Assembly (NCBI RefSeq): GCF_016592575.1
Contig: NZ_AP017470.1
Location: forward strand, 1,808,501-1,872,500
DNA: 64,000 bases
Direction of reading: 5' to 3'
DNA from: Thermotomaculum hydrothermale
GTDB lineage: Bacteria > Acidobacteriota > Holophagae > Thermotomaculales > Thermotomaculaceae
Part shown: positions 24,230-33,619 of the stretch, piece after piece
Layout of the letters: each line of letters opens with the position of its first letter
Position numbering within the stretch: position 1 is the stretch's first letter
Made by a program: the position numbers and the translations under genes
The notes under the pieces: generated by a model
Told to the model about the DNA's origin: nothing
Seen by the model: only the letters and a program-made list of their open reading frames with translations
The model's database searches: none

Positions 24230-25285
24230 TTACCCTGACACTCTCTTTAAATAATGAAGTGAGCTTCCTTCCTCTCCTATTGCTGGAATAAATCCTGCCC
24301 TGTCAATAACCAGTAATATTGAATTCAGGGATTGTTCAAGGGGAGAATTTAAAGACGGCTTGTTTTCATAAAGTTTGTAATTCTCCTTATATTCAGGAAG
24401 AGTAATATCTGGCATTATTACATTCCCCCCTGCCTTCAATCCTATAACCCTGCCCTCAGAGTGTAACGCAGCAAGAGCAGAGGTTGAAGCTATGTTTATA
24501 TCTTTCATTACAATCCTTGTAGCAGCAATCATCTTAATTGCAAGTTTAAAAATATTCTCCCTTTCCCTTTCAAACCAATCTTTAAATTCACTTCCCCAGG
24601 GTGTCTGATAATGAATAACATAGGGCCCCATCCCAATCATATCAACATCAAAATCTTTGTAAAACAGTATATCTTTTGCCAAATCCTCAATTGTCTGGTA
24701 TGGTGCTCCAATTAAAACCCCTGTCCCTGTTTGATATCCTATTTTTTTTATATTTTCAAGACATTTCAGCCTTTCCTCAAATTTGTGGTCTTGGGGATGC
24801 CACTTTTTATACAAATCGCTATTTGAGGTTTCAATTCTCAACAAACACCTTTCAGCACCTGCATCAAACCATCTTTTATAATCGTCAAAACCTGCCTCAC
24901 CAAGGGAGAGAGTAATCATCAAGCTTGAATCAATTCTTTTTATCTCTTTTATTATTTCTTCAATAAATGAAACATACTGTTTCCCCTTTAATTCTCCTCC
25001 CTGCAAAACAACAGAGCCTAACCCCTTTTCAGAGGCAAACCTGACAGATTTCAGTATATCTTCTTTACTCATAAAATATCGTTTTAAGCTTTTATTGCCT
25101 TTTCGTATCCCACAGTAATAGCAATTTTTGCTACATTTGTTTGTAAATTCAATTACTCCTCTTAAATAAACCTTATTTCCAACATGCTTTCTTCTCACTT
25201 TGCCTGCTTTCTCTATGAGCAAATCAAACTCTTTTCCCTCAGCTTTTAACATTTCCTCAATTTCTCTTTGTGAAACATTTCTCAT
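24230..25285 (-). CDS. hydE: [FeFe]-hydrogenase maturase HydE (radical SAM)
   Basis: 351 residues. The radical SAM cluster motif CSKNCYYC gives C51, C55 and C58, within EFTNKCSKNCYYCGIRKGN as in HydE/BioB-like enzymes. LRIETSNSDLYKKWHP and VLIGAPYQTIEDLAKDI match HydE rather than biotin synthase. HydE helps build the active-site cluster of [FeFe]-hydrogenase together with HydF and HydG. No hydrogenase, hydF or hydG is in the window, so these would have to be elsewhere. It stands alone between the protease and the pilin gene. Confidence 0.88.
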   Translation of the reverse strand: MRNVSQREIEEMLKAEGKEFDLLIEKAGKVRRKHVGNKVYLRGVIEFTNKCSKNCYYCGIRKGNKSLKRYFMSKEDILKSVRFASEKGLGSVVLQGGELKGKQYVSFIEEIIKEIKRIDSSLMITLSLGEAGFDDYKRWFDAGAERCLLRIETSNSDLYKKWHPQDHKFEERLKCLENIKKIGYQTGTGVLIGAPYQTIEDLAKDILFYKDFDVDMIGMGPYVIHYQTPWGSEFKDWFERERENIFKLAIKMIAATRIVMKDINIASTSALAALHSEGRVIGLKAGGNVIMPDITLPEYKENYKLYENKPSLNSPLEQSLNSILLVIDRAGFIPAIGEEGSSLHYLKRVSG

Positions 25286-25344: not shown

Positions 25345-25854
25345 TTATTCAGCTGGAGTTTCTTCTGTTGCTCCCTCTTCGCCTTCCTGCCCCTGAGTGT
25401 CAGCAGCCTCTTCATTAGCCTGTTCCTGGGCAACCAACTCCTGATACTGTTCTTCTGTTAAGAAATTACCGTCTTTAATATAGTATTTAGGATACTTTAT
25501 TCCCCATTTCCCTGGAGCAGCATGTCCTATAAAAAGATAACCGTCCTTCTTTGAATAGCCTTCATACTTCTGGCCAAATTTATCCTTTAAGGGAATATAG
25601 TCAATTAAGCCTTCTTTTACAACAACATTATCGGAAGTTGCAATTTCATCCCAGCTTGCATATTCAGGGTAGTACCCATGGTCAAGGTTATACTGGTCAA
25701 AAGCCTCAGCAACTTTTTTCAATTGCTCTCTTGAAGCAATCCACCTTGCCTTGTTAACACTGTTTAAGTACTTTGGAACCGCAATTGAACCGATTAAAAG
25801 GATAATTGTAATAGCAATGAGCATCTCTAAAAGTGAAAAACCCTTATTTTTCAT
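25345..25854 (-). CDS. Type IV pilin / type II secretion pseudopilin-like protein
   Basis: 169 residues. The prepilin cleavage and methylation motif KG-FSLLEMLIAITIILLIG is at residues 4-21, giving a mature N-terminal Phe with Glu at position +5. A globular domain typical of GspG-like pseudopilins follows, then an acidic Gln/Glu/Ala-rich tail of about 30 residues (from QEQANEEAADTQG). No other pilus genes are adjacent. Whether it serves a pilus or a secretion system cannot be decided here. Confidence 0.85.
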   Translation of the reverse strand: MKNKGFSLLEMLIAITIILLIGSIAVPKYLNSVNKARWIASREQLKKVAEAFDQYNLDHGYYPEYASWDEIATSDNVVVKEGLIDYIPLKDKFGQKYEGYSKKDGYLFIGHAAPGKWGIKYPKYYIKDGNFLTEEQYQELVAQEQANEEAADTQGQEGEEGATEETPAE

Positions 25855-26279: not shown

Positions 26280-27548
26280 TCAGTAATACCACGCTTTTCT
26301 TGTCCATGGTAAGTTTGCCCTGCCTTTTTCAGGTTTTACAAGCAGTGTTTGATAAAGCCCAATTTTTCCTATGGCAAATTGATAAGAGCTTGCAGCAAGG
26401 TATAAACGCCATACCCTGTACCTTTCTTTGCCTGCCTCTCTTATGCACTTTTCAGCATTTTCTTCCAGATTTTTAACCCACAGCGCAGTTGTTCTTGAGT
26501 AATGCTCCCTTAACTGCTCTATATCTCTTATCTCAAAGCCTGCATCCTCTGAAAATACCGAAATAAGGGATATAGGCAACAATTCTCCGTCAGGGAAAAC
26601 ATATTTCTGAATAAATTCCGACCTTGGTTTTCCAAAATCCACTTTGTTAATTGTAATCCCGTGATTTAAAAATAATCCCCCTTCTTTTAGCAAATTGTAC
26701 GCATGCTTCATATAAATTGAATAATTTTTCTCCCCAACATGCTCAAACATTCCGACACTAACTATTTTGTCAAACTTGTCATTTTCATCTAAATCCCTGT
26801 AATCCCTGAATTCCATTTTTACCCTATCTTCAAGCCCCTCTCTTTTTATCCATTCATTTGCAAATTCATACTGGTTTTTACTTAAAGTTATCCCCTTAGC
26901 ATACACCCCATAATTCTTTGCCGCATAGATAATCAAACCACCCCAGCCTGCACCAATATCAAGAAGCCTTTCCCCTTCTTTAAGATAAAGCTTCTTGCAG
27001 ATATAATCCATTTTCTGTATCTGCGCAGTGTTAATATCTTCCTCTCCTGTCTGAAAATAAGCACAGGAATACTGTAAGTTTTTGTCTAAAAATATTTTGT
27101 AAAACTCATTTGAAACATCGTAATGGTATGAAATTGCCTGAGCGTCCCTCTCCTTACTGTGCTTTTCTCCTTTCAATTTTGCTCTAATTTTGCTGTAAGG
27201 CTTATCCCTTTTAGGAAGCTTTCTCAAAAGGTTAAAGAGAGAAGCCTTCTCCAAAAGGCTTAACTTTTTTTCCACAAGGTATTCAGCCATGGGGAAAATT
27301 CCATATATATTTCCCTCAATGTCTATATCACCGTAAACATAGCTTTCAGCAAGTGAAAGCTCAGAGGCATCAATAAACATTTCCCTTAAAGACCATGGAA
27401 AGTTTATTTTGATTATTGTATCTTTTAAATCACCAAAAACCTCTTCTCCGTTCCAGAGCACAAAAACAGGCTTTTTATCAAATTCCCCCAATAATTTAGC
27501 TAAAAAATCTTTCGCAATTGAAATATATTCACCGTTTTTTCCCTCCAT
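26280..27548 (-). CDS. cfa: Cyclopropane-fatty-acyl-phospholipid synthase-family methyltransferase
   Basis: 422 residues. SAM-dependent modification of unsaturated acyl chains in membrane lipids. The methyltransferase motif I is LLDIGAGWGGL, preceded by YHYDVSNEFYKIFLDKNLQYS, a hallmark of Cfa. The C-terminal SRTTALWVKNLE and RVWRLYLAASSYQF segments are also typical. An N-terminal ~120-residue domain resembles the lipid-binding region of Cfa. The ATG has a GGAGGTG SD. Cfa-like enzymes also include methyl- or hydroxy-mycolate-type activities, so the exact product is not settled. Confidence 0.9.
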   Translation of the reverse strand: MEGKNGEYISIAKDFLAKLLGEFDKKPVFVLWNGEEVFGDLKDTIIKINFPWSLREMFIDASELSLAESYVYGDIDIEGNIYGIFPMAEYLVEKKLSLLEKASLFNLLRKLPKRDKPYSKIRAKLKGEKHSKERDAQAISYHYDVSNEFYKIFLDKNLQYSCAYFQTGEEDINTAQIQKMDYICKKLYLKEGERLLDIGAGWGGLIIYAAKNYGVYAKGITLSKNQYEFANEWIKREGLEDRVKMEFRDYRDLDENDKFDKIVSVGMFEHVGEKNYSIYMKHAYNLLKEGGLFLNHGITINKVDFGKPRSEFIQKYVFPDGELLPISLISVFSEDAGFEIRDIEQLREHYSRTTALWVKNLEENAEKCIREAGKERYRVWRLYLAASSYQFAIGKIGLYQTLLVKPEKGRANLPWTRKAWYY

Positions 27549-27645
27549 GTTCACCTCCAAAGTAAAAACAAGTTTTTAAAGAATAGATTTAAAAGAATTT
27601 CTTTATTTTTATTATATCTCAAAAAAATTTTTGCAACATATTTTG

Positions 27646-27677: not shown

Positions 27678-28679
27678 ATGAAATTAGCTGAAAAAATAAA
27701 GTATCAGGTGCCAATTAAGGCGGTACTGGATAAATTGGGAGTAAAAGAGGGGGCTTTAGGTTATTTTTGCCCATTCCATAAAGATGAAACAGGAAGCCTG
27801 ATAATAAAAGAAACAGACAATACATTCAAGTGCTCTGTTTGCAAAGCGTCAGGAGACCAGATTGAAATAACCAAGAAGGTAAAGGGCTTTGATTTTGAGC
27901 AGGCTATTGAGTTTTTAGCAAAAGAATTTGATATTAAAGAAGATAAAAACGAGGGGATTTTAGACGACTGGCTTTCTAACAGGGATAAAAGAGAAACCCT
28001 TGAAAGTGTTTTTGGCAAGGAGACTGAAGGGGAAATTAGCGAAAAAGACAGAGAGATTTATTCTTACATTTCAGAAAACACTTCCCTTTCTTTCATCCAT
28101 CAGACTTTTTTAGAAAAGAAAGGCTTTGATAATGCTTTAATTGAAAAACTAAAACTTAGTTCAATAGAAAAACCACACCTTTTTGTTGAAGAGTTAAAGG
28201 ATAGATTTGGAATTGAAGCCCTTGATAAAGCGGGATTACTAAACAGAAAGAGGGAGTTTGTTTTTCAGAAAAATAATCTTATAATCCCATTTTTTGAAAA
28301 CGGGGAGATTACCTTTCTTGCAGGCTGGGATATTTCAGGGGGAAGGTATGAGTTTGTTTTCCCCCACCACAAAACAAAAAAATGTTATATCCCCCAACTT
28401 GAAGAAAAGGAAGAAATTTACATTACAGGCGATTTTAGAGGATGCTTTGCATTCTTAAAGAAAAACTGTTTCTCTGTTGCCGCTTTCGGAGATTTTGAAA
28501 AACTTTTGCAATTTAAAGGAAAGAAAATCTTTGTTTGCGGGGATAAAGACGAAAAGGGGCAACAGTTTAATAGAAAAATCATTAAATTTTTTGCTGAAAG
28601 CGGGGTAAATTACACAATAGGTGGATTTGAAAACTGTTTCACAGATTACCTTGATTACCTCACTTTTAAAAGAAAATAG
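27678..28679 (+). CDS. DnaG-like CHC2 zinc-finger protein with degenerate Toprim domain
   Basis: 333 residues. The N-terminus is a primase-type zinc finger with C31, H34, C52 and C55 (FCPFHKDETGS and FKCSVCKASGDQIEI), followed by GFDFEQAIEFLAKEF as in DnaG. The C-terminal part looks like a Toprim domain. It keeps the D-x-D motif (GDKDEKG, D289/D291), but the usual catalytic EG motif is replaced (YITGDFRGC). The helicase-binding domain of true DnaG is missing. It is unlikely to be the replicative primase. The start is the ATG behind GGAGGG. Confidence 0.75.
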   Translation: MKLAEKIKYQVPIKAVLDKLGVKEGALGYFCPFHKDETGSLIIKETDNTFKCSVCKASGDQIEITKKVKGFDFEQAIEFLAKEFDIKEDKNEGILDDWLSNRDKRETLESVFGKETEGEISEKDREIYSYISENTSLSFIHQTFLEKKGFDNALIEKLKLSSIEKPHLFVEELKDRFGIEALDKAGLLNRKREFVFQKNNLIIPFFENGEITFLAGWDISGGRYEFVFPHHKTKKCYIPQLEEKEEIYITGDFRGCFAFLKKNCFSVAAFGDFEKLLQFKGKKIFVCGDKDEKGQQFNRKIIKFFAESGVNYTIGGFENCFTDYLDYLTFKRK

Positions 28680-28756: not shown

Positions 28757-31237
28757 ATGTACCCTTACTCTGATTTAATAAAAGTAAAAAAACCTGGCCA
28801 ATACACTGGGGGAGAATTAAACTCAATAGTTAAAAACACTGAAAATAAATTAAGGTTTCTTTTAGCATTCCCAGACCTTTACGAAATTGGCATGTCTTAC
28901 ACAGGGCTTCATATACTCTATGAATTGATAAACAGACAAGAAAATATATTTGCCGAAAGGGTTTTTGCACCGTGGATTGACTTTGAGAAAATTTTAAGGG
29001 AAAAGAAATTACCTTTACTTTCCCTTGAGACAAAAACACCAATGAATAAATTTGATGTTGTCGGCTTTACCTTTCAGTATGAGTTAACCTACACAAACTT
29101 TCTAAATATGCTTGATTTGTCAGGCATCCCATTGAGAAGCAAAGAGAGAACAGATTTCCCTTTGATTATGGCAGGGGGACCTTGCGTATCCAACCCGGAA
29201 CCGATTGCCCCGTTTGTTGACTTTTTCTATATAGGGGAAGCGGAAACCTACTTAATTGAGATTTTAAACAAAATTCAAACCTTAAAACAAAGCGGGAAAA
29301 ACAGGAAACAGATACTTGAACAACTTGCTGAATATGAATTTATCTATGTGCCAGAGTTTTCAAAGTACAGACAAACAGAGTTTTTTCTCATCCCGGAGTA
29401 CCCTAAAAAAGTAAAAAGGACATTTCCCCTAAATTTTGAGCAGAGGGATTTCCCTGAAAAGGCGGTACAGCCTAATGTTCAGATTGTTTACGACAGAGTA
29501 ACACTTGAAATTTCAAGAGGTTGCGACGAGGGGTGCAGATTCTGTCAGGCAGGGTACATTTACAGGCCTCAAAGGGAGAGAAAGCCTGAAGATTTAATAA
29601 CTCAGGCAGATACACTTTTAAAAAACACAGGCCAGGATGAAATATCCTTAACCTCTTTAAGCGCCGCAAATTATCCAGGTATTGAACTTTTAATTGAAAC
29701 ACTTATGAAAAAGTATTCAGATGAAAGAATATCACTCTCGCTTCCATCAATAAGGGCAGACAAATTTAAAGACGAGTTTGCAATATCCATAAAAGAGGGA
29801 AGAAAAACAGGTTTTACAATAGCCCCTGAGGCAGGCACAGAAAGGTTGAGAAAAATTATAAACAAAAACCTGAAAGAAGAAGATATTTTCTGGAGTGCAA
29901 AAACAGCATTTGAAAACGGCTGGGACCACATAAAATTTTACTTTATGATAGGGCTTCCCTTTGAGGAGTATGAAGACCTTGAAGGAATTGTAAAAATATG
30001 CGAAAAAAGCCTTGAGTTTGCAAAAAGGGGGCATGTAATTCTATCTGCCTCAACCTTTGTGCCAAAGCCCCACACCCCTTTTCAATGGATTGGACAGATT
30101 ACTTACCACGAAACTGTAAACAGGCAGGAGTACATAAAATCACTGGTAAAAACAAGGAGAATAAGGTACAAATTCCACGACCCTGCTATGTCTGTTTTAG
30201 AGGGGATAATATCAAGGGGAGATGTGCTTGTTGCAGATGTTATTGAAAAAGCATTTAAAATGGGGGTGAGGTTTGACGGCTGGAGTGACACCTTTGATTT
30301 TTCAATATGGGAAAAAGCAATTAAAAAAAGCGGTATAAACATAGAAAGGTATTACATAGACCTACCTGAAGATACAGAATTCCCATGGGATTTTATTGAC
30401 ATTGGAGTTAGAAAAAAGTTTCTATTACAGGAATTGAAAAGGGCAATAGAAGGCAAAAACACAGAAATGTGTGTTGATGTCAAATCCTGCAATGCATGTG
30501 GCACATGTTCAGGCAAATACTTAAAGGAGAGGTTTGAAAAGAGAATAGAATTTTACAACAAACTAAAACAGGCTGTTAGCATTGAAAACAATAGAACAAA
30601 GACAGAAAAAGAAGAGGAGAGATACCATTACCTTTTTATTTTCAACAAAAAGAATGAAATGAAATTTATATCCCACCTTGACTTAATAAGGATAATCCAG
30701 AGGGGGTTGAGGATAAGCAAACTCCCAATAGCATTTACAAAAGGCTTTTCCCCCAAACCAATTCTCACCTTTTCTCCAGCCCTTGAATTGGGAATTGAAG
30801 GAGAAAATGAAATGTTTATAGTTGAAATGAAAGAAAAGGTTGACATAAATCAGGCTATTTTCAAAATCAACAGAGGATTGCCAGAGGGGATAAGGGTTAA
30901 AGAGGGGAAAATTGTACCGTTTGAAAAAAGAAAATTTCTGTCAGGAAAGTGTAAATTGTACTATCTTATTGAATCAAAAGACAACCTTGAAATAAATAGA
31001 GATTGGCAAAAACTAAAAACTAAAAAGAAAACCAAAAGGGGATTTAAAGAGATTGAAGTAAAAAATTATGTAAAAAAAGTAACTGAAATTGAAAAGGGCA
31101 AATACATTATTGAAAGCGAATTCAGTCCTGATAAAGGCAGCTTAAAGATAACCGAGATAGTGCCTTTAATCTTTAAGAATACAAATTTAGATAATGCTAT
31201 AATAAAAAGACAGAAAATAGAATACGGAGAATTATGA
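28757..31237 (+). CDS. Two-domain radical SAM protein with DUF2344 domain
   Basis: 826 residues. The N-terminal half (about 1-600) is a B12-type radical SAM protein of the TIGR03960 kind: VKKPGQYTGGELNSI at the start, cluster ligands C256, C260 and C263 in SRGCDEGCRFCQAGYI, and APEAGTERLRKIINKNL. A CNACGTCSG cysteine cluster lies near 580. The C-terminal ~200 residues (FISHLDLIRIIQRGLR, AFTKGFSPKPILTFSPAL) match the TIGR03936/DUF2344 domain. The two are separate genes in some bacteria and fused here. The biochemical role is unknown, but the gene is regularly next to RNase G. The ATG with GGAG is chosen over an upstream TTG. Confidence 0.88.
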   Translation: MYPYSDLIKVKKPGQYTGGELNSIVKNTENKLRFLLAFPDLYEIGMSYTGLHILYELINRQENIFAERVFAPWIDFEKILREKKLPLLSLETKTPMNKFDVVGFTFQYELTYTNFLNMLDLSGIPLRSKERTDFPLIMAGGPCVSNPEPIAPFVDFFYIGEAETYLIEILNKIQTLKQSGKNRKQILEQLAEYEFIYVPEFSKYRQTEFFLIPEYPKKVKRTFPLNFEQRDFPEKAVQPNVQIVYDRVTLEISRGCDEGCRFCQAGYIYRPQRERKPEDLITQADTLLKNTGQDEISLTSLSAANYPGIELLIETLMKKYSDERISLSLPSIRADKFKDEFAISIKEGRKTGFTIAPEAGTERLRKIINKNLKEEDIFWSAKTAFENGWDHIKFYFMIGLPFEEYEDLEGIVKICEKSLEFAKRGHVILSASTFVPKPHTPFQWIGQITYHETVNRQEYIKSLVKTRRIRYKFHDPAMSVLEGIISRGDVLVADVIEKAFKMGVRFDGWSDTFDFSIWEKAIKKSGINIERYYIDLPEDTEFPWDFIDIGVRKKFLLQELKRAIEGKNTEMCVDVKSCNACGTCSGKYLKERFEKRIEFYNKLKQAVSIENNRTKTEKEEERYHYLFIFNKKNEMKFISHLDLIRIIQRGLRISKLPIAFTKGFSPKPILTFSPALELGIEGENEMFIVEMKEKVDINQAIFKINRGLPEGIRVKEGKIVPFEKRKFLSGKCKLYYLIESKDNLEINRDWQKLKTKKKTKRGFKEIEVKNYVKKVTEIEKGKYIIESEFSPDKGSLKITEIVPLIFKNTNLDNAIIKRQKIEYGEL

Positions 31238-32739
31238 TAAGAGAAATTTTAGTAAACTCAACAAATCAGGAAACAAGGATTGCGTTAATAGAAAACAACA
31301 AACTTGTTGAGGTATTTGTTGAAAGAAGGTTTAACAGAGGGATTGTAGGAAACATTTACAAAGGAAAGGTAACAAAGGTTTTACCTGGAATGCAGTCAGC
31401 ATTCGTAAACATAGGGCTGGATAGAGACGCATTCCTCTATGTTGGAGACATTTCTGAAAATATCCTGAATATTGAAGAATTCATTGACGAAGAAAATATT
31501 GAAGATACCGATGACGAAAAAGTAACAAGCCACAGCGATGTTCACATTGAAGATTTGTTGAGAGAGGGACAGGAAATACTCGTCCAGATTGCTAAAGAGC
31601 CTATTGGAACAAAGGGGCCGAGGATTACAGCACACATAAGCCTTCCTGGAAGATACCTTGTCTATATGCCAACAATTTCTCACATAGGTGTTTCAAGAAA
31701 GATTGAAGACGAAGAAGAGAGAGAAAGATTAAAACAGATAATGGAAAAGATAAAAAAAGGCACAGGTGGATACATTGTAAGAACAGCAGCAGAGGGAATG
31801 GATGAAGAGGCTTTAAAACAGGATGTTGAGCTTTTACAAAAGATATGGAAAGAGATAATCCAGAAAACAGAGAACTCAAGGGCACCTAAACTTATCCACG
31901 AAGAATTGGGGCTTCTTGAAAAGGTGATAAGGGATTACTTTACAGATGACACAACCTTAATGCTTGTTGACAACGAAACTGCATACCAGCAAACCATTCA
32001 ATTCCTTGACAAAATAAACAGCAGGTGGATTAACAGGGTAAAACTGTACACAAAAAAACAGCCAATATTTGAGTTATACGACATTGAAAGCCAGATTGAA
32101 GGGGCACTTCGTTCAAAGGTATGGCTAAAATCAGGGGGGTACATTGTTATAAACCAGACGGAAGCCCTTGTTTCAATTGATGTAAACACAGGAAGGTATA
32201 TAGGTAAAAAATCCTTAGAAGAAACTGTGTTTAAGACAAACAAAGAGGCTGTATCGGAGATAGTAAGGCAAATCAGGCTAAGAAACTTAGGGGGAATTAT
32301 AGTTGTTGATTTTATTGATATGGAAGAGGAAGAGCATAGAAAAGAGGTTTTAGACCTTCTTGAAAATGAGTTAAAAAAAGACAAATCAAGAACAAATGTA
32401 CTGACAATTGAAGAAATAGGGCTTGTTGCAATTACAAGAAAAAGGGTAAAGCAGTCTTTGGAGAGGGAATTAACCCAGGTTTGCCCTTACTGTCGCGGTA
32501 CTGGAAGGGTAAAATCAATACCAACCATACTCCTTGAAATTCAAAGGGAAATAATAAACAGGATTGTAATAAATTATGACAGGGATATTACCATAAGGGT
32601 GCACCCTTACATAGGAGAATACCTTAAAAACGACAATTACTTCATAGTTAAAGAATTAACCGAATACTTTAATATAAGAATAAATGTGAAGGAAGACCCT
32701 AACCTTCATTTAGAGGAGTACGATATTGTCTTTAATTAA
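31234..32739 (+). CDS. rng: Ribonuclease G/E family
   Basis: Endoribonuclease for rRNA maturation and mRNA decay, 501 residues, RNase G length without the long RNase E C-terminal scaffold. An S1 domain (about 35-130, GNIYKGKVTKVLPGMQSAFV) is interrupted by an acidic insertion around residues 80-100. The catalytic aspartates are D316 (SIDVNTGRYIGKK) and D359 (VVDFIDME). The zinc-link is CPYC at residues 417-420. The start overlaps the upstream radical SAM gene (ATGA). Confidence 0.96.
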   Translation: MIREILVNSTNQETRIALIENNKLVEVFVERRFNRGIVGNIYKGKVTKVLPGMQSAFVNIGLDRDAFLYVGDISENILNIEEFIDEENIEDTDDEKVTSHSDVHIEDLLREGQEILVQIAKEPIGTKGPRITAHISLPGRYLVYMPTISHIGVSRKIEDEEERERLKQIMEKIKKGTGGYIVRTAAEGMDEEALKQDVELLQKIWKEIIQKTENSRAPKLIHEELGLLEKVIRDYFTDDTTLMLVDNETAYQQTIQFLDKINSRWINRVKLYTKKQPIFELYDIESQIEGALRSKVWLKSGGYIVINQTEALVSIDVNTGRYIGKKSLEETVFKTNKEAVSEIVRQIRLRNLGGIIVVDFIDMEEEEHRKEVLDLLENELKKDKSRTNVLTIEEIGLVAITRKRVKQSLERELTQVCPYCRGTGRVKSIPTILLEIQREIINRIVINYDRDITIRVHPYIGEYLKNDNYFIVKELTEYFNIRINVKEDPNLHLEEYDIVFN

Positions 32740-33619
32740 TGAGAATTTTTCAATTGCATTAGGCAGCGGCGGGGCAAGAGGGCTGGCACACATAGGGATT
32801 TTAAAAACTCTTAAAGAAAACGGGCTTAAAATTGGAGCAATTTCAGGCACATCAATGGGTGCAGTAATAGGGGCTTTCTATGCCGCTGACAAATTGGAAG
32901 ATGCAGAAGAATATTATCGAAGCATGAAGGTTACAGATGTAATATTCAACTTTGACCCTATATTCCCAACTTCAGGGCTTATAAACGGCAAAAAGGTAAT
33001 CCAGATGCTGAGAGATGTAATCGGAGACATCTATGTTTTTGATACTAAAATCCCCTTTTACCCTGTGGCAACAGACCTTGATTCAGGGGAATGGGTTGTA
33101 TTGCAGGACTGCAAACTCTGGGAAGCGATAAGGGCATCAATATCAATCCCGGGGCTTTTCAGGCCTTTTAAAATCAAGAATAGATACTATATTGACGGGG
33201 GAATAACAAACCCTGTTCCTGTAAATGTTTTAAAGGAAAGACATTCAGATACAAAGACAATAGCAGTAAACCTAAACCTGAAACCAACTGATTATAAGAG
33301 GGCCTGGATAAAAGAAACAGATAGCGAAACTGGATTTCTTTTAAACAAATTCCCCAGGCTAAAACGACTGGCAAGAAGGGTTGGAATAAACGGAAGAAAC
33401 AAAAAGGAGAAAGACCCAAATATTCTCCATGTATTAAACAGGACATTCCACATTGTTCAATACGAACTTGCGTGGAGAAGCCTTGAGTTTGACAAACCTG
33501 ATTACCTTTTAACCCCTAATTTAAACGATGTTGTCTTTATTGAATTTCACAAAGCGGATAAATCAATCTCTGAAGGTGAAAGGGTAGCAAAAGAGTTAAT
33601 TGAAAAGCTTAAAAATTAG
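32726..33619 (+). CDS. Patatin-like phospholipase (RssA/NTE type)
   Basis: 297 residues. The oxyanion motif GSGGARG is at 13-19, the nucleophile serine S43 lies in GTSMG, and the catalytic aspartate D157 in DGG; all three dyad elements are intact. It probably hydrolyses lysophospholipids or other lipids at the inner face of the membrane. The start is TTG with a good AGAGGAG SD, overlapping rng by 14 bases. Confidence 0.9.
   Translation: MSLINENFSIALGSGGARGLAHIGILKTLKENGLKIGAISGTSMGAVIGAFYAADKLEDAEEYYRSMKVTDVIFNFDPIFPTSGLINGKKVIQMLRDVIGDIYVFDTKIPFYPVATDLDSGEWVVLQDCKLWEAIRASISIPGLFRPFKIKNRYYIDGGITNPVPVNVLKERHSDTKTIAVNLNLKPTDYKRAWIKETDSETGFLLNKFPRLKRLARRVGINGRNKKEKDPNILHVLNRTFHIVQYELAWRSLEFDKPDYLLTPNLNDVVFIEFHKADKSISEGERVAKELIEKLKN

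Follow-up and report, generated by a model that had tools for sequence, protein, structure and literature searches.

A maintained, remodelled DnaG-like protein family, predicted to be a "pseudo-primase", in the Thermotomaculaceae

The genome of Thermotomaculum hydrothermale (one contig of 2,317,141 bases) encodes, in addition to a normal DnaG, a second DnaG-like protein which, together with its orthologues, forms a maintained and remodelled family that we predict to be a "pseudo-primase". The gene occupies positions 27678..28679 (+) of the window, by which we mean the whole 64,000-nucleotide stretch that was analysed, and its 333-aa product (the window protein) combines a zinc-binding domain with a degenerate RNA-polymerase/Toprim domain (RPD) and has no helicase-binding domain. 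As the alignments show, most of the residues to which catalysis and template gripping are attributed have been lost, together with the helicase-docking domain, and the protein probably binds or regulates rather than making primers. The reading that we favour, although tentatively, is that a second DnaG-like protein, chromosomal and vertically inherited, would have given up priming and would now work as an accessory or scaffold.

Domain layout, predicted fold and the normal DnaG

The frame opens at the ATG at 27678, preceded by GGAGGG, and closes with the stop at 28677-28679. A mechanical ORF starts earlier, at a GTG at 27645; the sequence MKL.EKI.YQV nevertheless begins at the point of this ATG in all eight orthologues, so that the start is conserved (in L038, L042 and L044, where the open frame extends farther upstream, the start was placed at the conserved ATG). 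Scanning the gene for a promoter and a terminator gave nothing above shuffles. The zinc-binding domain corresponds to residues 1-90 (27678..27947, +), in which the Pfam model PF01807 (Zn_ribbon_DnaG) matches residues 29-90 at 9.6e-15, with C31, H34, C52 and C55 as ligands; the four ligands are kept, and the model is above its cut-off, in 8/8 orthologues. The N-terminal half of the RPD, delimited by the DnaG alignment and by structure comparison, covers residues 121-240 (28038..28397, +), and the degenerate Toprim half, with the motif TGDFRG and D289-K-D291, residues 241-333 (28398..28676, +). Pfam Toprim models reach E < 0.1 in six of the eight orthologues, always under their cut-off (the window protein included), and the dnaG equivalog model TIGR01391 fails on the window protein, with 63.1 bits for a cut-off of 283.6.

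Homology with DnaG extends beyond the zinc finger. When six family members were made into a profile and aligned with a profile of 19 DnaGs, 298 columns were matched (hhalign, probability 99.4%, E 7.6e-22), residues 1-325 of the window protein being paired with positions 5-342 of the DnaG profile; these are the figures of the local mode (the global mode aligned 1 column), and the 19 DnaGs were taken from 26 loci by a rule demanding the EG motif. The layout is a zinc domain followed by an RPD, terminating at about position 342, where DnaG continues to its C-terminal parts. The helicase-binding C-terminus is absent from the window protein, where Pfam DnaB_bind gives nothing up to E 1. All 333 aa are taken up by the zinc domain and the RPD, no ring helicase domain is present in the protein, and the helicase-named PHROGs families hit it solely in the zinc or Toprim stretch.

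An AlphaFold2 model of the window protein, for which the family alignment was the input, has moderate confidence (pLDDT 73, pTM 0.54; residues 91-111, 221-232 and 315-333 are under 50 pLDDT), and the fold that it predicts retains the primase core. Its core best matches the RPD of Bacillus subtilis DnaG (5guj, VIA Z 17.9, rmsd 2.9, 210 aligned), and its zinc domain matches 1d0q (VIA Z 10.7, rmsd 3.1, 91 aligned). Foldseek also ranks DnaG structures on top, with an rmsd of 20.7 to the two-domain chain 2au3, which indicates that the two domains are positioned differently in the model.

The normal dnaG of the same genome lies at C1:1587 kb. Its 570-aa product scores 406.4 bits with TIGR01391 and has the Pfam domains zinc finger, DNAG_N, Toprim and DnaB_bind, the last just above its cut-off (21.5 vs 20.6 bits). 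A normal DnaG was found in eight of the nine family genomes, the exception being an assembly that is 83% complete. The initial annotation had described an intact CHCC zinc finger, a missing helicase-interaction domain and a derivation from a DnaG-type primase, and had proposed to check for a normal dnaG elsewhere; the profile searches, the predicted fold and the 570-aa DnaG bear it out on all these points.

Remodelling of the primase core

Eight family proteins (hereafter the paralogues) were aligned with 33 DnaGs picked without regard to the Toprim motif, these being mostly the loci that best match the window protein, near-copies included (L027, L060 and L066 have no row under the ORF and zinc-motif rule that was used). 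In this set 37 columns are invariant in the DnaGs, and nine of them are kept in all eight paralogues. The zinc domain keeps 6 of its 12 invariant columns, including all four ligands, and the RPD 3 of its 25, namely G186, P204 and G294, which are Gly or Pro only. The functional roles of the E-G, D-x-D and Arg/Lys residues of DnaG are, in part, general background to what follows.

The losses concern both the basic and the acidic residues. Two arginine columns invariant in DnaG have become N200 and W217 in all paralogues, the K-Y-x-N columns (227, 228 and 230, present in 33/33 DnaGs) are changed in all of them, with a non-basic residue at 227, and a further invariant Lys column is a gap or Ser, so that all eight paralogues lack the basic residue at four columns invariant in DnaG (R, R, K, K). 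The basic cleft position 198 is Arg in 30 and Lys in 3 of the 33 DnaGs, and K198 is found in every paralogue. Both MAFFT and hhalign pair the motif TGDFRG (residues 250-255) with VEGYMD of DnaG, which places G251 in the column of the catalytic Glu, D252 in that of the following Gly and G255 in that of the Asp. The catalytic Glu itself, present in 32/33 DnaGs, is Gly in the five paralogues of the window's genus (g1) and Glu in the three of its sister genus (g2); the next Gly is D252 in all eight, and the final Asp of E-G-x-x-D is replaced by Gly or Ala in all eight. D-x-D is kept in four paralogues, all from g1 (4/5), and replaced by E-K-N, E-K-S or E-K-T in the other four (the three of g2 and one of g1). 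The D-P-D columns are gapped in 8/8, in a stretch where the alignment is weak. The catalytic Glu (3/8) and D-x-D (4/8) never co-occur in one protein, and none of the eight has the full Toprim set.

The replacement of the glutamate-glycine motif by TGDFRG, reported in the initial annotation, is therefore correct, and the alteration of Toprim holds throughout the orthologues. The D-x-D motif pointed out at the same time is indeed present in the window protein, but it is not a feature of the family, half of whose members have lost it.

New residues have been fixed where the old ones disappeared (N200, W217, D252 and F297, each in 8/8 paralogues). K198, D218 and K290 are also identical in 8/8, and position 289 is Asp or Glu in all; with D252 and the acid at 289 constant, metal binding or some chemistry may still be possible. 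RPD positions invariant in DnaG are more often fixed in the paralogues (9/21 vs 40/192, Fisher p 0.03), an enrichment that is suggestive at most, because the nine include the three Gly/Pro residues already named and because several regions were tried. The distribution of charge has changed as well. The N-terminal half of the RPD has a net charge of -3 to -7 in seven of the eight paralogues (0 to +5 in the eight DnaGs of the family), and the Toprim half one of +1 to +7, again in seven of eight (-5 to 0 in the same DnaGs). This evidence is mixed, since an acidic N-terminal half would speak against binding there whereas a basic Toprim half could favour binding.

Distribution, selection and origin

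Orthologues are present in eight of the nine family genomes (5/5 in g1 and 3/4 in g2), all with intact frames, of 333-339 aa. In the ninth genome (G220, 94% complete) neither the orthologue nor purC nor the neighbouring murJ was found, and the locus is probably unassembled, because these neighbours are absent with it; a loss of the gene was considered and dropped, purC being absent and the sole MurJ match of that genome being the other MurJ. When the window protein was searched against the phylum, 325 of 396 genomes gave a match, with a best E of 2.1e-9 outside the family, where the matches listed are weak and for the most part cover no more than the zinc domain; no orthologue outside the family was recognised among them. 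The family profile, run against 93 genomes of the class, matched in 60 of them, and no further member appeared among the matches listed. Phyla beyond Acidobacteriota were covered by one pattern-based scan of genome contigs, which returned 2 loci, both in the family; one viral contig scan returned 1 locus, matching the zinc domain alone at 30% identity, and tblastn against phages and plasmids returned 181 and 75 records, respectively, all below 60% identity, and at most 28.8% among the matches listed.

Nine open frames below 450 aa from outside the family (eight from the phylum search and one from the class search), plus one L027-like copy, were inspected as possible short relatives. Of the nine, seven are truncated by the end of a contig; intact DnaG motifs are visible in two of these seven. 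Another (L071:1947-3023, -) encodes 358 aa in reversed order, with a Toprim-like part (VCEGEFD, YDHDAAG) before a CHC2 zinc finger. The last (L072:1400-2509, -), from genome G290 of another Acidobacteriota family, is a 369-aa protein with a zinc finger and an RPD, no helicase-binding domain and intact catalytic motifs. Unlike the window protein, it keeps E-G, the two arginines and D-x-D, so that a short layout alone does not entail the loss of the catalytic residues; it is closest to ordinary DnaGs and falls outside the clade of the paralogues, and is not an orthologue.

Purifying selection acts on the family. The ratio dN/dS lies between 0.039 and 0.112 for 11 of the 13 pairs compared within a genus (dS is saturated in the other two), and since dS exceeds 1 in 10 of these 11, the pair with a dS of 0.47 (dN/dS 0.082) is the most trustworthy. 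The DnaG-like protein evolves faster than the real DnaG: between the window genome and G013 identity is 40% for the former and 62% for the latter, and with G205 the values are 65% and 77%. By domain, the comparison with G013 gives 56% (zinc) and 35% (RPD), vs 68% and 63% in DnaG; with G205 it gives 68% and 64%, vs 91% and 72%. Between genera the excess change is thus mostly in the RPD, and within the genus (G205) more in the zinc domain; the larger excess of the zinc domain in the latter case means that selection is not clearly centred on it.

The gene is flanked by a divergent gene for a methyltransferase of the cyclopropane-fatty-acid-synthase type (26280..27560, -; profile match to Pfam CMAS) and, after a gap of 77 bases, by a radical SAM gene (28757..31237, +; TIGR03960 and TIGR03936), a neighbour conserved only in g1, followed on the same strand by a gene of the RNase E/G family (31234..32739, +; RNase G-like), likewise found there in g1 only. 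Four of the five g1 genomes have the succession DnaG-like / radical SAM / rng / patatin on one strand, and the contig of the fifth ends inside the radical SAM gene. In g2 the gene is divergent from purC and upstream of murJ, with a RecB/AddA-like gene next in the two longer contigs (the AddA-like gene of the window genome is at C1:412 kb). The conserved neighbourhood that the initial annotation had proposed to look for therefore exists within each genus but not between the two, and because no neighbour is common to both, context cannot tell a role on DNA from a role on RNA. An operon with RNase G was for the same reason, the different sister genus, rejected as a general functional clue. The annotation was right about the housekeeping setting: the 14 neighbours scanned (20.4-40 kb) look like housekeeping genes and include, besides the methyltransferase, radical SAM, RNase G and patatin genes, those for ScpA, ScpB, a class I tRNA synthetase and QueH, and no recognised mobile gene is among them. 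A chromosomal gene, syntenic within each genus, under purifying selection and with no recognised mobile genes beside it, is not a decaying remnant.

A few other features of these regions deserve a mention. In the run at 28757-33619 (+), a single radical SAM protein of 826 aa unites the TIGR03960 and TIGR03936 parts; its gene and rng overlap, as do rng and the patatin gene, a tight arrangement conserved in g1. A gene conserved in g1 at 25345-25854 (-), adjoining another radical SAM gene (24230-25285), encodes a pseudopilin-like protein of 169 aa (Pfam N_methyl 9.5e-07; T2SSG falls just short of its cut-off). Two very different MurJ-like matches exist in three of the four g2 genomes (for example L039:10710-12233 and G268:C98), one of the two genes being, in g2, directly downstream of the DnaG-like gene.

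In phylogenetic trees the eight paralogues group as a single clade (100/100) whose stem measures 2.7-3.1. A first tree puts this long-stemmed clade next to a plasmid protein (94/92), and an AU test does not reject its grouping with the family's own DnaGs (p 0.197). In a second tree, without the plasmid row, the clade stands apart; this tree left out ten rows, six long-branched and four near-copies. The family could thus have arisen from a dnaG duplicate or from a captured primase, the placement in the tree fitting either. Three proteins of another family of the class (L055, L056 and L057; 1062-1276 aa, with a CHC2 zinc finger) make a long-branched clade of their own, and are possibly large primase-helicases of mobile elements.

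Candidate roles and known systems

A role in binding DNA or RNA, or as a regulator, is plausible for such a protein. In the accessory or scaffold reading the zinc domain would touch single-stranded DNA (or RNA) or, alternatively, would dock in trans onto the real DnaG, at its polymerase domain, with the remodelled RPD core as a binding surface; the protein, making no primers itself, would then tune or compete with priming, or mark single strands. The idea of an action in trans comes from Corn et al., cited in PMC5634424 and PMC6163395, who are said to have reported in 2005 that subunits of DnaG primase act on one another in this way. Our confidence in this mechanism is tentative, and was lowered slightly because the split of conservation is not always in favour of the zinc domain and because the charge evidence is mixed. 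It can also be imagined, although we find it rather doubtful, that the primase cleft has been rebuilt, and would sense a nucleotide or a nucleic-acid end, or carry out a different reaction, acting in trans on DnaG; this reading comes from the residues fixed in the family in or next to the catalytic positions (K198, N200, W217, D218, D252, K290 and 289).

The other explanations seem to us less than convincing, to various degrees. That the protein is a phage or plasmid primase, domesticated to serve the host or to interfere with the replication of phages, is somewhat unlikely. Viral proteins annotated as primases and of about the same length are among its structural matches (such as the 313-aa protein of Rhodococcus phage Trina), although the whole-chain rmsd is large, 20.7, and the first tree joins the clade to a plasmid protein; this junction, however, involves branches that are long, grouping with the family's own DnaGs is not rejected, and the paralogues stand apart once the plasmid row is removed, while the phage and plasmid matches are all distant, no mobile gene was seen among the 14 neighbours and the GC of the gene (0.346) is like that of the window (0.358). 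In any case, this explanation bears on origin more than on present function. We consider unlikely a helper of RNA decay that would bind RNA, as the DnaG of the archaeal exosome does, with the RNase G of the second gene downstream as its partner: the run in four of the five g1 genomes is in its favour, as is the binding of RNA by archaeal DnaG through its own N-domain and Toprim, described in PMC4227792, but the g2 genomes have murJ downstream, then, in two longer contigs, the RecB/AddA-like gene. Still harder to accept is an active, atypical short primase, independent of helicase docking, on the model of TtDnaG2. The layout is that of TtDnaG2, which primes in vitro according to PMC5634424, and D252, the acid at 289 and K198 are kept in 8/8; against this, the R, R, K and K residues, the Gly after the catalytic Glu and the following Asp are changed in 8/8, and E-G and D-x-D are never together in one protein. 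Finally, a decaying and functionless duplicate of dnaG would explain why catalytic residues and one domain were lost, but this view is largely contradicted, and to our mind extremely improbable, given intact frames of 333-339 aa in 8/8, dN/dS values of 0.04-0.11 and new residues fixed at the lost positions (N200, W217, D252 and F297 in 8/8).

None of the known systems that we compared is the same thing. Bacterial DnaG (TIGR01391) shares with the window protein the CHCC zinc-binding domain and an RPD/Toprim of like order and predicted fold, but the window protein has lost most of the catalytic and template residues, is changed at the K-Y-x-N columns and has no helicase-binding C-terminus. TtDnaG2 of Thermoanaerobacter tengcongensis, compared here by its described layout, is a second, short DnaG with a zinc domain and an RPD, without a helicase-interaction domain and coexisting with a normal DnaG; it is reported to make RNA primers, and its physiological role is described as unknown (PMC5634424). 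Human Twinkle chains share a primase-type Toprim fold with the window-protein model (VIA Z 10.3-10.4), and the N-domain of Twinkle is reported to have lost priming and to bind DNA (PMC9860392); this N-domain is, however, part of a helicase ring, whereas the window protein is a stand-alone protein of 333 aa with an intact zinc finger. Archaeal DnaG, a Toprim protein that shares the DnaG name, is a cap subunit of the exosome and binds RNA through an N-terminal domain (PMC4227792), whereas the window protein begins with a CHC2 zinc finger; on either side of Toprim, E. coli DnaG is reported to be dissimilar to the archaeal protein. The short phage primases, of about 310-345 aa, have, like the window protein, a zinc finger and an RPD and no helicase-binding domain, but the viral ones are 10-20% identical to it among the structural matches listed, and match the model loosely. 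A search of the open-licence literature (titles and abstract openings) found, among the matches listed, nothing on a bacterial paralogue of DnaG that is catalytically inactive. The family is a stand-alone, zinc-finger-bearing, catalytically stripped derivative of DnaG.

Bacterial replication is usually described with a single primase. A second primase-like protein, kept by selection alongside an ordinary DnaG, amounts to a natural experiment in the uses of a zinc domain and a primase shell without priming and, if the cleft has really been rebuilt, the protein would be a stand-alone bacterial counterpart of the inactive primase domain of Twinkle. The Thermotomaculaceae thus offer a small and well-defined family in which non-catalytic roles of the parts of DnaG, such as regulation in trans or the marking of strands, may be tested.
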